A model generated the notes under the pieces. The model had not been told where the DNA came from. It did no database searches and was given only the letters and a program-made list of their open reading frames with translations. The translations under genes were made by a program, and so were the position numbers. A stretch of 37,572 nucleotides of DNA from Candidatus Yanofskyibacteriota bacterium (GTDB lineage Bacteria; Patescibacteriota; Minisyncoccia; 2-02-FULL-40-12; GWA2-44-9), in assembly GCA_016185505.1 (NCBI GenBank), contig JACPNL010000027.1, positions 1-37,572 on the forward strand, written 5' to 3'. Of the stretch, positions 7,047-36,031 are shown piece by piece; positions within the stretch are counted from its first letter, which is position 1; every line of letters starts with the position of its first letter.

Positions 7047-7649
7047 ATGATCAAACTTATTATCGGCATCGGCAATCCAGACCTAGAGTATCAAAATACC
7101 CGCCACAACGTCGGATTTATGTTTTTGGATTACCTTGCTAAAAAATTGGAAGCTAATGATTTTGAATTTGATAAAAAATCAAACTCTTTGATAACAAAGG
7201 CAAAATTAGAAACAGCCCCGACGCCAAAGGGTCGGGGCTCCGACCGAAGCGTCGGAGTTATCCTGGCCAAACCTCAAACTTATGTTAATAAATCCGGCGA
7301 AGCCGTGAAAAAATTAGCTAAAACCTACAACCTAAAACCTAATGACCTAATCGTCGTCCACGACGATTTAGATATTCCGTTTGGCAATATCAAACTCTCT
7401 TTTGATAAAAATTCCGGCGGCCACAAGGGCGTAGAATCAATAATGCGAGCATTAAAAACAAAAAAGTTCTACCGCCTCCGCATCGGGCTTGCTAAACCGG
7501 CTCTAGCAAAAGCCCGACAAGGGTCAGAAAAGAAAAGAGACGAATTCGTTGTCAAATTAGTACTTTCAAAGTTTACTCCGGCAGAACAAGAAACTTTGAA
7601 AAAAATCTTTAAGGAAGGTCATGAGAAAATAATGTCGGTAATTAGGTAA
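7047..7649 (+). CDS. pth: Peptidyl-tRNA hydrolase
   Basis: The ATG at 7047 gives MIKLIIGIGNPDLEYQNTRH, the standard start of the family; the upstream extension of the frame has no Met and overlaps the terminator. Catalytic features are visible: Asn in GIGNP (about 10), His in NTRHNVG (about 20) and Asp in VVHDDLD (about 108). The enzyme frees tRNA from peptidyl-tRNA released by stalled ribosomes. A palindromic element (7215-7257) is inserted in frame before VILAKPQTYVN and adds [14 protein letters not shown] to the loop after residue 55, making the protein 200 residues. Confidence 0.95.
   Translation: MIKLIIGIGNPDLEYQNTRHNVGFMFLDYLAKKLEANDFEFDKKSNSLITKAKLETAPTPKGRGSDRSVGVILAKPQTYVNKSGEAVKKLAKTYNLKPNDLIVVHDDLDIPFGNIKLSFDKNSGGHKGVESIMRALKTKKFYRLRIGLAKPALAKARQGSEKKRDEFVVKLVLSKFTPAEQETLKKIFKEGHEKIMSVIR
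7215..7257 (+). repeat. In-frame palindromic element, family A (in pth)
   Basis: Two adjacent hairpins: CCCCGAC...GTCGGGG (7216-7237) and CTCCGAC...GTCGGAG (7238-7257). The sequence matches the copy in the trmH-like gene (33142-33183) at about 40 of 42 positions and is in the same reading frame, encoding [13 protein letters not shown] in both. Confidence 0.85.
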
Positions 7650-7764: not shown

Positions 7765-8553
7765 CTAGTCCTCAATTCTTCGTCGCAACTTCCCGATCAT
7801 CTCATCAGCGTGCTTAACTCCGCCCAGACCAAAGGAAAGACCCAGGGCCAACGCGGCGGCGGCTACGAATCCAACAATCACTATTCTGACAATATCATCC
7901 GCCACTCCCAATTGAGCCAACACTATGAGCAAAGTGAACACGAATACTGACCACTTCGTCAAAGCGCCTAAGAAGTTGGCAGAAACCAATCCCGCCGCTT
8001 TAACCGACGCCCGCACTAATCCCTCTAAGAATTTGGCAACTAAAATACCGATCAACAGAATAACAGCCGCGACAATCACATTCGGAAGGTACAACACAAC
8101 AACTCCCAGAAACTCTGTCACCTGATCAAGGCGAAGAATATTGGCAGCCGCCATCAAAAAGACGATTATGAAGAACCATTTAACCAGCTCATAGAAAAAC
8201 TTCGGCGTATCTAGCCGAAAACCGCCTCTCTCCCATGCGTGCCTGAAACCGACTTTGGTTAAAGCGCTGTCAACGCGAAGCACTCTTACAATGTGCCACG
8301 CAACCTTACCCAAAAGCACGGCTATCAGCCAGCCGACAAGAAAGACGACTATGGCCGCGACAAAACGAGGCACAAACCCCGCCACGCCGGTCCATAGGGT
8401 CAACGCAACCTTACCCAAAAGCACGGCTATCAGCCAGCCGACAAGAAAGACGACTATGGCCGCGACAAAACGAGGCACAAACCCCGCCACGCCGGTCCAT
8501 AGGGTCAACAATGATTCTCGAACTATATCCGATGCTGCTACTACTTGAAACAT
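7765..8553 (-). CDS. Membrane protein with mechanosensitive-channel TM-helix repeats
   Basis: Start taken at ATG 8551-8553, preceded by GGGGGTG, rather than the ATG 24 bases upstream. The product is 262 residues with about six membrane segments. The repeated unit PRFVAAIVVFLVGWLIAVLLGK and later copies (PNVIVAAVILLIGILVAKFLE) match the conserved TM-helix repeat found in small mechanosensitive-channel relatives. The C-terminal ALALGLSFGLGGVKHADEMI resembles the channel pore helix region. No large cytoplasmic beta domain is present. Residues about 16-85 contain an exact 35-residue duplication caused by a 105-bp tandem repeat. Likely in the cytoplasmic membrane; gating role inferred. Confidence 0.82.
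   Translation of the reverse strand: MFQVVAASDIVRESLLTLWTGVAGFVPRFVAAIVVFLVGWLIAVLLGKVALTLWTGVAGFVPRFVAAIVVFLVGWLIAVLLGKVAWHIVRVLRVDSALTKVGFRHAWERGGFRLDTPKFFYELVKWFFIIVFLMAAANILRLDQVTEFLGVVVLYLPNVIVAAVILLIGILVAKFLEGLVRASVKAAGLVSANFLGALTKWSVFVFTLLIVLAQLGVADDIVRIVIVGFVAAAALALGLSFGLGGVKHADEMIGKLRRRIED
8300..8509. repeat. Perfect 105-bp tandem duplication
   Basis: 8300-8404 and 8405-8509 are identical base for base. The unit is a multiple of three, so the channel-like protein gains exactly one extra copy of the 35 residues beginning LTLWTGVAGF. Absence of any divergence means the event is recent or is an assembly artefact. Confidence 0.95.
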
Positions 8554-8579
8554 TAGTATGTATGCACCCCCAATCATAC

Positions 8580-16956: not shown

Positions 16957-17772
16957 CTAAAATAAGTCCCTGTTACTTTTCCACTCGTCCACAATATTCA
17001 CCACCCTCTTATTATCTGACCGTCCCAGTTTTTTGAGATGTTTTTTGTCAGCCACCCACTCACCGCCATTCCAAAATTCAATATTCTCAAACGCGGTTTT
17101 ATACAACGCCTTCTCGCCATATACTGTGCCTACATAAAAATTCTTTTTACCGGCTTTTTGCGCATGCCTCGCGCTATCTAACATCAGCCACATCCCCAGC
17201 GATTGATAAATAAGAGAAATATCGTAAAAGGAATACCAAAAGTGAGTCATATTTTTGTCAGAAACCTCAAAAACATAGGCTACCGGCTTGTCATTCATGC
17301 TATACGAAATAATATCGGTTATAAGGCCATAGTTGAGTATCGTTTTCAAGCGCTCTTCGGGCATCACTAACGGTCCATGCCGTTTTAAAAAATAATCAGA
17401 GCAAAAATCAATGAAACTTTTGTCGCGTATGTCAAAATTCTTAAACGGTATTGATTCACGAACTAATTTATCGCTCGCCCCGTAGTGTGGTTTCGGTTTA
17501 GTTTTGCCAGAGACAGCCGAAATCTCTACTACGGGGTCAAATTTCTTGGCAACGCGGCGGTTCTCGCTTGAAAGAACGAATGAGCTCAACGGAAAACGCG
17601 CGCTTCGAGCCATATAGAAAATATCTTTAACCCCAGGACTACCCGAATATGGCAAATAGCCGGCAGCATAAATATCCGAGATTTTATCCTTTTTCTCTCT
17701 AACACAATAACCCGCGTAACCAAAAGAGTACGCTTTGTAATTGTGGCCGAATTCACTGTGAAACTTACGCAT
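16957..17772 (-). CDS. GNAT-fold transferase, arginyl-tRNA-protein transferase-like
   Basis: Protein of 271 residues. The N-terminal part has GYLPYSGSPG and FYMARSARFPLSSFVLSSENRR, and the C-terminal part has YQSLGMWLMLDSARHAQKAGKKNFYVGTVY, YKTAFENIEFWNGGEW (described by key residues). These resemble the two halves of Ate/Bpt N-end-rule transferases and the related GNAT/FemAB fold. The conserved N-terminal Cys cluster of true Ate1 is not visible, so the substrate is open. Between residues 78 and 98 a palindromic element (17478-17536) inserts DPVVEISAVSGKTKPKPHYG in frame. Likely cytoplasmic. Confidence 0.6.
   Translation of the reverse strand: MRKFHSEFGHNYKAYSFGYAGYCVREKKDKISDIYAAGYLPYSGSPGVKDIFYMARSARFPLSSFVLSSENRRVAKKFDPVVEISAVSGKTKPKPHYGASDKLVRESIPFKNFDIRDKSFIDFCSDYFLKRHGPLVMPEERLKTILNYGLITDIISYSMNDKPVAYVFEVSDKNMTHFWYSFYDISLIYQSLGMWLMLDSARHAQKAGKKNFYVGTVYGEKALYKTAFENIEFWNGGEWVADKKHLKKLGRSDNKRVVNIVDEWKSNRDLF
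17478..17536 (-). repeat. In-frame palindromic element, family B (GNAT/Ate-like gene)
   Basis: CCCCGTAGT (17478-17486) and ACTACGGGG (17528-17536) are exact terminal arms. TTTCGG/CCGAAA form a second stem inside. The coding strand reads DPVVE at one end and HYG at the other, as in the family-B copy in the trmH-like gene (DPVVE...YTTG). Confidence 0.8.
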
Positions 17773-27883: not shown

Positions 27884-28909
27884 CTACTTTCTACTTACTA
27901 CTTTCTTTACTGCTTTTTTTATACTTTCCACATCCATACCGAAATGTTTGATGAGTTCTTCGGCGTTGCCTGATTCCCCAAACCTGTTTTGAACTCCAAT
28001 ATACTCTTGCGGAGTCGGATAATTTCTTGATAAGACCTCGGCAACCGCCGAACCAAGCCCGCCGTTTACCTGATGCTCTTCAACCGTTACAACGGCTCCG
28101 GTTTTTTTCGCCGCTTCAATAATTGTTTTTTCGTCCAACGGTTTCACGGTATGAGAATTTATAACCAAACATTCTATCCCCTCTTTGGATAGTTCTTCGG
28201 CCGCCAAAAGCGCGTTATATAATAACATGCCACATCCGACGATAGCGCAGCTATTCGCCCCGACCGGAACTCCGACCGAAAGCGTCGGAGAAGCGTCGGG
28301 GTTAATATCTCTGAACACCTCTGCCCTCCCCACTTCGAACGGCGTATCTTCTGTCGTAAAAACAGGAGACTTTTCTCTCCCTATTCTCAAATAAGACGGC
28401 TTATCGTTAAATGCTATCGCGACAGTCGCTTTCCGGGCTTCTACCGCGTCGCAAGGCACAACGACCACCATCGGCGGCTGGACACGCATTAAAGCAATAT
28501 CTTCAAGCGCTTGATGTGTCGCGCCATCCGGCCCTACAGAAATTCCGGCATGAGCCCCTACAATTTTAACCGGTACGTTGTTTATGGAAATATTAGTCCT
28601 TATCTGCTCATTGTTTCTTCCCGGGCTGAATGTGGCGTATGAGGAGATAAAAGGTATCTTGCCGTAGTTAGCCATACCGGAGGCCAAAAGAGCCAAATTC
28701 TGTTCGGCTACGCCAACTTGGACGAATCTTTCGGGAAATTTCTCCGCGAACCAATGCGACCGCGTTGACTCGGTCAGGTCAGCGCAAAGAACAACAACCC
28801 TTTCGTCTTTTTCTCCCGCTTCAACGACGCCCTTACCATAGCCGTCGCGAGTCGGCACCATCTCGGGTTTACTCAAATCGGAAATTAGTTTTGCGTTTTT
28901 GTTAAACAT
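27884..28909 (-). CDS. tktB: Transketolase, C-terminal subunit
   Basis: Protein of 341 residues covering the pyrimidine-binding and C-terminal domains. It shows KDERVVVLCADLTEST, RFVQVGVAEQNLALLASGMA with the catalytic Glu, and GPDGATHQALEDIALMR. The late TVKPLDEKTIIEAAKKTG, VTVEEHQVNGGLGSAVAEVL part is the C-terminal domain. It pairs with the N-terminal subunit encoded at 29429-30349. A palindromic element (28258-28301) adds about 16 residues (NPDASPTLSVGVPVG) just before CAIVGCGMLLYNAL. Confidence 0.94.
   Translation of the reverse strand: MFNKNAKLISDLSKPEMVPTRDGYGKGVVEAGEKDERVVVLCADLTESTRSHWFAEKFPERFVQVGVAEQNLALLASGMANYGKIPFISSYATFSPGRNNEQIRTNISINNVPVKIVGAHAGISVGPDGATHQALEDIALMRVQPPMVVVVPCDAVEARKATVAIAFNDKPSYLRIGREKSPVFTTEDTPFEVGRAEVFRDINPDASPTLSVGVPVGANSCAIVGCGMLLYNALLAAEELSKEGIECLVINSHTVKPLDEKTIIEAAKKTGAVVTVEEHQVNGGLGSAVAEVLSRNYPTPQEYIGVQNRFGESGNAEELIKHFGMDVESIKKAVKKVVSRK
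28258..28301 (-). repeat. In-frame palindromic element, family A variant (transketolase C gene)
   Basis: Outer arms CCCCGAC/GTCGGGG enclose inner arms CTCCGAC/GTCGGAG. The same four arms occur side by side in the pth and trmH copies; here they are nested. Confidence 0.75.
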
Positions 28910-31462: not shown

Positions 31463-31551
31463 CCCCGTAGTAGAGATTTCGGATACCTCCTCGCCTCGCC
31501 AAAGCTTCAGCGAAGCGGGCGGTAAAGATAAACCGAAATCACACTAGGGGG
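31463..31551. repeat. Intergenic palindromic element, family B
   Basis: CCCCGTAGTAGAGATTTCGG (31463-31482) pairs with CCGAAATC...ACTAGGGGG (to 31551). The interior GCCTCGCCAAAGCTTCAGCG-AAGCGGGC looks like a second palindrome nested inside. The rest of the 31427-31638 gap shows no gene. Confidence 0.7.
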
Positions 31552-31638
31552 CACGCCCTTTATCAGAATCATTTTAATCTGTGTTTTTATTCAAAAAGCT
31601 CCACCGCGAGAGCTTTGAAATAAGAACTCATTTATTTT

Positions 31639-32834: not shown

Positions 32835-32895
32835 TTCAAAAATTTTTTATTTTTAATCTGTGTTTTTGATATTTAATTTTTAATTTTTAATATCA
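32835..32895. repeat. AT-rich low-complexity repeat, AAATATCAAAAATTAAAAAT theme
   Basis: AATTCAAAAATTTTTTATTT and GATATTTAATTTTTAATTTT units fill the gap between rnhB and the trmH-like gene and run into that gene's 3' end. Confidence 0.4.
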
Positions 32896-33673
32896 TGGCA
32901 TATAGCACCACTCCCGCCGCCACCGATACATTCAACGATTCTTTTTTGCCATACATAGGAATATACACAACCTCGTCACAGTATTTTAAAATTTTCGGAC
33001 TTAGTCCTCTGACCTCGTTGCCCAGAACCAGGGCAATTTTTTTATTCTTTGACACTTTATATTTGAAAATGTTTTTCTGCTGAATTTTTAGTTTGCTTGC
33101 AGTGAGCTTGTCGAACCGCTCCAGTCCTACAATTTTGACTTCTCCGACGCTTCGGTCGGAGCCCCGACCTTTCGGCGTCGGGGTTGAACTTTGATTTTTG
33201 ATTTTGAGTAAACATCTCCATGTTTGCGACTGGTATTCCCAAGGCACATAATTTTCAGCACCTAGCGCTGTTTTTGATATTTTATCACTTCCCTGCCCCG
33301 TAGTGTAAATCAAGTTTTCTTTCAGCGAAGCTGCTTGATTTTCTACTACGGGGTCCGCTCCCAACGCCGTCTTGCTTATCTTATCATCAAAATTATCTAC
33401 GCCAGATATCGTATTTATAATACGATCGTGGTATAAATCAGATCCTATTTTTTGATTAATATTCTCCCGACGGCAAAGCCGTCGAGGATCCTCGACAGAG
33501 TCGGGACGTACTCCATATTTCATGATTTTTGGTGTCGGCGTTATCCCGCATAAATATATCTTGGAAACTCCCGCCGCGTCCGCGGTTCTAAATATTGAAC
33601 CTACATTTTCTTTACTCCTAATATTGTCCAATATTAATACCGGGCACACATTTCTCTTGACCATGTTTATCAT
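32873..33673 (-). CDS. TrmH/SpoU-family RNA methyltransferase swollen by insertions
   Basis: The SPOUT core is intact: [36 protein letters not shown] (motif 1 key N-x-R-S-x-x-N-V-G), [28 protein letters not shown] (motif 2), and [18 protein letters not shown] (motif 3, knot). It transfers methyl from SAM to a ribose 2'-OH, probably in tRNA or rRNA. Minimal members have about 150-180 residues; this one has 266. The excess maps to at least four palindromic elements (33098-33116, 33142-33183, 33297-33353, 33465-33506) and a doubled [10 protein letters not shown] segment. All insertions keep the frame. Start at 33673 or the second ATG at 33664. Confidence 0.88.
33098..33116. repeat. Degenerate family-C element in trmH-like gene
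   Basis: CAGTGAGCTTGTCGAACCG keeps the TGAGCTTGTCGAA core but the terminal arms no longer pair fully. It encodes RFDKLTA, a different frame from the other two family-C copies. Confidence 0.5.
33142..33183 (-). repeat. In-frame palindromic element, family A (in trmH-like gene)
   Basis: CTCCGAC/GTCGGAG and CCCCGAC/GTCGGGG hairpins side by side. The coding strand differs from the pth copy at about 2 of 42 positions and encodes the identical [13 protein letters not shown]. Confidence 0.88.
33297..33353 (-). repeat. In-frame palindromic element, family B (in trmH-like gene)
   Basis: CCCCGTAGT (33297-33305) and ACTACGGGG (33345-33353) arms with inner AAATCAAG/CTTGATTT. It encodes DPVVENQ...LIYTTG and is flanked by the two copies of [10 protein letters not shown]. 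Confidence 0.82.
33465..33506 (-). repeat. In-frame nested palindrome (in trmH-like gene)
   Basis: TCCCGAC/GTCGGGA outer arms enclose GACGGC-AAA-GCCGTC and GTCGAGGATCCTCGAC. It encodes [14 protein letters not shown], which interrupts the region after the conserved GITPTP. Confidence 0.72.
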
Positions 33674-35991: not shown

Positions 35992-36031
35992 AATCAAAAA
36001 CGGCACCGCCTAGGCGGTGCCGTTTTTGATT
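35992..36031 (-). terminator. Strong terminator after 16S rRNA spacer
   Basis: AATCAAAAACGGCACCGCC and its exact complement form an almost loop-free 19-20-bp stem, with T-runs on both sides. It ends the rRNA transcript before purF. Confidence 0.85.

Follow-up and report, generated by a model that had tools for sequence, protein, structure and literature searches.

The window analysed here, a stretch of 37,572 nucleotides, forms contig 24 of a genome of 681 kb (32 contigs, GC content 42%). It carries pth on the forward strand and a SpoU/TrmH-like RNA methyltransferase gene on the reverse strand, both of which contain a 42-bp stretch made of two adjacent hairpins, together with further palindromic inserts. 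In what follows, G000 denotes this genome and G001 and G002 the two members of the same genus with which it was compared at the codon level; open reading frames (ORFs) were taken as greedy longest ORFs. The features of interest are:

7047..7649, + strand: pth, peptidyl-tRNA hydrolase (Pept_tRNA_hydro, PF01195, E=2.4e-50)
7216..7257, + strand: double-hairpin element in pth, with stems CCCCGAC/GTCGGGG and CTCCGAC/GTCGGAG, read as a 13-residue peptide
28258..28301, - strand: nested CCGAC hairpins (CCCCGAC-[CTCCGAC..GTCGGAG]-GTCGGGG) in the transketolase C-terminal subunit gene, 27884-28909(-)
32873..33673, - strand: SpoU/TrmH-like RNA methyltransferase gene (SpoU_methylase, PF00588), 266 aa
33142..33183, - strand: second copy of the element, in the methyltransferase gene, matching the pth copy at 40/42 bases and sharing its frame; absent from G001 and G002
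33296..33353, - strand: palindromic insert of the CCCCGTAGTAG...ACTACGGGG family in the methyltransferase gene, with further copies at 17477-17538 and 31463-31553
33404..33453, - strand: palindromic insert of the ATCGTATTTAT..ACGATCGT family in the methyltransferase gene, with further copies in C1, C19, C27 and C32
33465..33506, - strand: related double hairpin TCCCGAC..GTCGAGGA + TCCTCGAC..GTCGGGA in the methyltransferase gene, giving a 15-residue reading

A sequence-only reading of the window had described the copies in pth and the methyltransferase gene as near-identical elements in unrelated hosts. A 42-bp pattern search bears this out, giving 2 mismatches, with 40 of 42 bases identical and the 13-residue peptide read in frame in both, and a repeat search of the two copies gave 93% identity over 45 nt; the host proteins belong to different Pfam families, as listed above. 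The element in pth is likewise real, with its first base at 7216 rather than 7215 as first proposed.

The methyltransferase gene alone holds at least four palindromic inserts and encodes 266 aa, compared with open frames of mostly 154-197 aa in relatives. Its double hairpin at 33465-33506 has a sister copy at C7:23371-23412, read as a 16-residue peptide, while no matching sequence for this insert was found in G002 and none that is clear in G001. The CCCCGTAGTAG palindrome at 33296-33353 is flanked by a repeated 10-residue segment, the two DNA copies of which differ at many synonymous positions. Elsewhere in the window, a perfect 105-bp tandem duplication at 8298-8507, within an ORF at 7765-8577(-), repeats 35 residues (LTLWTGVAGFVPRFVAAIVVFLVGWLIAVLLGKVA) of a membrane segment and could be either a recent event or an assembly effect, and a perfect 40-bp palindrome (AATCAAAAACGGCACCGCCT/AGGCGGTGCCGTTTTTGATT) at 35992-36031 is terminator-like on both strands.

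Structure and abundance of the element

The 42-bp element consists of two adjacent hairpins with 7-bp stems, CCCCGAC-GCCAAAGG-GTCGGGG and CTCCGAC-CGAAGC-GTCGGAG, and the RNA fold of the whole has a free energy of -25.6 kcal/mol, compared with -14.9 (sd 2.9) in shuffled sequences. Read on the opposite strand, the second hairpin (CYCCGACGCYTC.GGTCGGRG) resembles the first. Single, double and nested forms are all present, the last with one hairpin lying within the loop of another (window 28258-28301, C1:20371 and C25:23012), and element size ranges from 20 to 66 bp. The prolyl-tRNA synthetase (ProRS) gene holds a third copy of 42 bp (C5:7892-7933), which a genome-wide pattern search recovered with 2 mismatches.

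Counting as a hairpin any CCGAC/GTCGG core with two further complementary pairs (a 7-bp stem), we found 39 in G000 and none in any of five dinucleotide shuffles; other permutations of the CCGAC 5-mer gave at most 9 hairpins, with a median of 1. The same count yielded 29 hairpins for G002 and 17 for G001, where shuffles gave 0-1. The abundance of CCGAC hairpins is not due to chance. While the outer two stem pairs vary (C-G, T-A, G-C, A-T), 39 of 51 cores keep the complementarity of both. In its exact form the 42-bp element is rare: within the family it was found only in G000, G002 and G023, and the named collection added a single genome. A degenerate element pattern had an exact match in only one named genome, a Candidatus Nomurabacteria metagenome-assembled genome, so that G000 most likely belongs to a CPR (Patescibacteria) bacterium close to Nomurabacteria.

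The insertion in pth

The host is the only pth found in the genome (one match). G002 has the insertion too, at an identical base and frame and with the 13-residue peptide kept, whereas G001 and the other aligned relatives do not have it; the left boundary is uncertain, the net gain being 12 aa for a 14-codon element. In an AlphaFold2 model of mean pLDDT 92.9, the insert (residues 57-70) forms a loop, bordered by strands 47-55 and 68-76, that has a pLDDT of about 70-76, and the remaining fold is of high confidence. Residues N10, H20, N81 and D106, which correspond to known active-site positions of the family, are invariant. The pth genes of five relatives (L060, L063, L069, L071 and L086) carry other small insertions at other loops, with peptides such as LPAGRQG, RRSLGEGGS and SFAKASEGK that look like further palindrome families.

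Host genes and empty sites

Copies have inserted in many unrelated, mostly essential genes and in the RNase P RNA gene (rnpB), leaving the host gene readable. Besides pth, the SpoU methyltransferase gene and ProRS, CCGAC hairpins occur in the genes for MurF, CCA tRNA nucleotidyltransferase, methionyl aminopeptidase, DnaK, DnaG, a beta-CASP nuclease, the transketolase subunit and tRNA-guanine transglycosylase (Tgt). For most host sites, one or more relatives have a clean counterpart. At the codon level, empty sites were found in at least one congener for MurF, the CCA-adding enzyme, methionyl aminopeptidase, ProRS, the methyltransferase, C17:25713 and C26:29764. In MurF, an exact 66-bp insert lies between AAT CAA and ATG CC(A/G), and the extra bases relative to congeners amount to 54 bp in the CCA enzyme, 21 bp in methionyl aminopeptidase and 24 bp at C26:29764. 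At the best sites the insert starts and stops exactly at the hairpin boundary, and several copies have 1-5 extra bases beside the hairpin. Neither a target duplication nor a common flanking tetranucleotide was visible at clean insertion sites. These empty sites, and the many unrelated genes with hairpins, confirm the earlier proposal that homology between hosts does not account for the shared stretch: the copies are insertions.

Palindromes are not confined to the CCGAC family. Comparison of the genome with itself gave more than 100 repeat components, many of them palindromic and many within genes. Both congeners lack 65 of the in-frame insertions seen here, and 49% of these 65 contained a perfect stem of at least 7 bp, compared with 7% of matched control stretches drawn from the same gene set.

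The inserts in DnaK and DnaG are shared with G001; G002 lacks that in DnaK. The pth and DnaK patterns disagree as to which congener is nearer, so that loss, transfer or repeated insertion must occur. At the transketolase loop each species holds a different sequence which, together with the other Pth insertions in relatives, points to tolerant loops.

The insertion in RNase P RNA

G000 has one rnpB (Rfam RF00010, 103.9 bits), in which a 45-bp double hairpin, TCCCGACGTTTCAGTCGGGACTCCGACCTCGTAAGAGCGTCGGAG, lies between GAAACGG and CTAAATCC. In all 20 readable relatives, GAAACGG continues directly into CTAAATCC or a one-base variant, the uninterrupted site being of the type GAAACGGC(T/A/C)AAATCC. 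The insertion site corresponds to the P13/P14 position of the class A consensus, and the alignment of one relative skips both helices. The family has lost P13/P14, and in G000 the double hairpin occupies their place, where it may work as P13/P14. We rejected the reading of the double hairpin as an ordinary P13/P14, because the 20 readable relatives have neither helix and run through the site uninterrupted. Other hairpin-like insertions, one with CTCCGAAGCCTTAGCAAAAGAGG, lie upstream of GAAACGG in rnpB of G002 (L143) and G015 (L142). A Y1 transposase gene adjoins rnpB in G000 (L055, G000:C29:22823-24071), with TGTGGAGGGC/GCCCTCCACA hairpins around both.

Y1 transposase genes

Two Y1_Tnp genes were identified in the genome, on C3 and C29. 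That on C3 (G000 C3:19762-20845) is flanked by hairpins of the CCTGTGGATAA type, a family of 30-50 copies, and that on C29 by TGTGGAGGGC..GCCCTCCACA hairpins. None of the Y1 genes examined in this and related genomes is flanked by CYCCGAC..GTCGGRG, and the hairpins beside them vary from one gene to the next. CCGAC cores in the neighbourhood of Y1 genes are few, and they belong to CCTGTGGATAA hairpins, to another palindrome (ATGACCGACAC), to single cores unlike the family, or to the rnpB insert. The flanks of the element copies contain neither a GTAG tag nor a terminal CGTC.

The flanking hairpin of the C3 gene, CCTGTGGATAA[x]CGACTT..AAGTCG[x']TTATCCACAGG, is also found within ORFs at orthologous sites across the family. 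In G000 its x-x' pair is A-T in 34 of 34 cases; G002 has T-A in 16 of 17, and G001 has the two in even proportion, a pattern that looks like concerted evolution.

Origin of the element and alternative explanations

Taken together, the 42-bp stretch is best explained as a small, non-autonomous, dispersed palindromic mobile element of two back-to-back hairpins that is tolerated after insertion, a reading to which we assign a probability of roughly 0.8. Such an element would move as a hairpin-forming single strand, either by the action in trans of a Y1/HUH-type transposase or by template switching at replication forks; these are the two candidate mechanisms. Coding copies would persist where they are harmless, that is, where net length is a multiple of three and the insertion falls in a surface loop, and RNA copies where the site is in a peripheral helix.

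The genome is metagenome-derived, and its 32 contigs and 12.6 kb of N would favour an assembly or binning artefact. As an account of the inserts, however, artefact is barely conceivable: the pth insert recurs at the same base in another species of the genus, inserts preserve the frame, and two congeners are likewise enriched in hairpins. Selection for a single readable frame, or insertion with frame filtering, had been suggested because the window copies in pth and the methyltransferase gene agree in frame. That agreement, and the retention of the 13-residue peptide in pth of G002, would favour selection on the peptide itself, as a linker or tag that proteins acquire. Yet the pth element is free of stops in all six frames, two copies are expected to agree in frame by chance about once in three to six, and the ProRS copy reads PRRQGVGAPTKASE in a frame that differs from that of pth. 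In ORFs of at least 120 aa, CCGAC hairpins use the three frames 7/5/5 times (22 of 39 hairpins lie outside such ORFs), copies in other frames give unrelated peptides, and the same kind of element occurs in rnpB, which is untranslated. With six open frames and this usage, agreement in frame between the window copies does not point to selection for one peptide. The element in rnpB, together with the frame usage, refutes the peptide as a selected unit in general, leaving it a highly improbable explanation, and the 13 residues are most likely incidental. Selection for one frame is accordingly rejected. The only filter seen is a net length in multiples of three, which in coding genes is in part guaranteed by the site-finding procedure.

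Three insertions are shared with a congener, that in pth with G002 and those in DnaK and DnaG with G001. Inside them the third codon position is identical in 31 of 32 codons, compared with 43%, 68% and 42% in the flanks, an excess that we treat as a lead because the sample is small and sites called as shared by alignment favour conserved copies. Only 1.3% of GC3-matched windows are as conserved as the pth insert (12/13). A general scan gave a related hint: in hairpins within genes with stems of at least 13 bp, double compensatory changes make up 33% of changed pairs, compared with 8% in a slid control. Third-position conservation of shared copies exceeds plain neutral drift, which counts against mere tolerance. 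Selection at the level of DNA or RNA, for example for mRNA stability or folding during translation, could keep the hairpins and make the insertions functional beyond being tolerated. We consider this rather unlikely, since three sites and 32 codons are involved, many insertions are absent in congeners, so that no single one is needed, and homogenisation of copies or quasi-palindrome correction yields the same pattern. Somewhat more plausible, although still tentative, is the broader proposal that the embedded hairpins are rewritten or maintained as nucleic acid, be it by homogenisation, quasi-palindrome correction or selection, as DNA that evolves as a family inside coding sequence, and that the rnpB element supplied two helices where P13/P14 had been lost. 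Mobilisation of the elements as REP/REPIN sequences by the RAYT (IS200/Y1) transposases of the genome would fit the presence of two Y1_Tnp genes, the hairpin pairs that flank RAYT genes in the family and a possible REPIN-like layout of two hairpins in opposite orientation; it is doubtful in view of the missing CYCCGAC..GTCGGRG flanks and the absence of GTAG and terminal CGTC tags. Since G000 is 95% complete, a cognate RAYT gene may be absent from the assembly.

Significance and comparison with known systems

Most known protein-coding palindromes come from Rickettsia and Wolbachia. Our search found no paper on in-frame palindromes in CPR bacteria; as subscription papers lay mostly outside that search, we make no claim of priority. 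The heavy load of such palindromes in this ultra-small CPR genome, where they lie in pth, ProRS, MurF, DnaK, DnaG and RNase P RNA, would make in-frame hairpin insertion a recurrent route for streamlined genomes to gain loops in essential proteins and RNAs. The inserts offer natural maps of insertion tolerance, and they are also a warning that models of CPR proteins or of RNase P may hold inserts specific to a lineage that represent mobile DNA rather than functional domains.

The element shares features with several described families. CGTC REPs, which include RPE-4 and RPE-6, are short, often form head-to-head dimers, are sometimes intragenic and have no known dedicated transposase (PMC3733652). 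They are defined by a terminal CGTC, 8-9 bp stems starting with A/T pairs and CCA-like tails (PMC3733652), whereas the element described here has CGTC only inside the 3' arm, 7-bp stems starting mostly with C-G or T-A, and no CCA tail at clean-site boundaries. GTAG REPs and REPINs, which are associated with RAYTs, may resemble it in having two hairpins in opposite orientation, given the likeness of the second hairpin on the other strand to the first, although single and nested forms occur as well; RAYT genes are present in the genome; the element differs in lacking the GTAG tag and a RAYT flanked by the same hairpin, and in that many copies are intragenic. By the published definitions (PMC3733652) it is neither a CGTC nor a GTAG REP, as tags, stems and tails differ at the element boundaries. 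The Correia elements of Neisseria (107-bp type) are likewise small and non-autonomous, with open frames fused in frame to genes (PMC2229807), but are larger and have terminal inverted repeats, TA ends and a target duplication, the last not seen here.

The closest likeness is to the Rickettsia palindromic elements (RPEs), which lie in frame in many Rickettsia genes and also in tmRNA and M1 RNA (PMC2229807), and to their Wolbachia counterparts (WPEs). The resemblance drawn here is one of features: the elements are palindromic and dispersed, occur in frame in unrelated conserved genes and in RNA genes including RNase P RNA, and leave their hosts readable. RPE-1 types measure 105-146 bp and form a long stem-loop, whereas those described here measure 20-66 bp and comprise two hairpins and nested forms, in a different phylum. 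By this analogy, the phenomenon appears to work as Rickettsia RPEs do, in a very different bacterial group.
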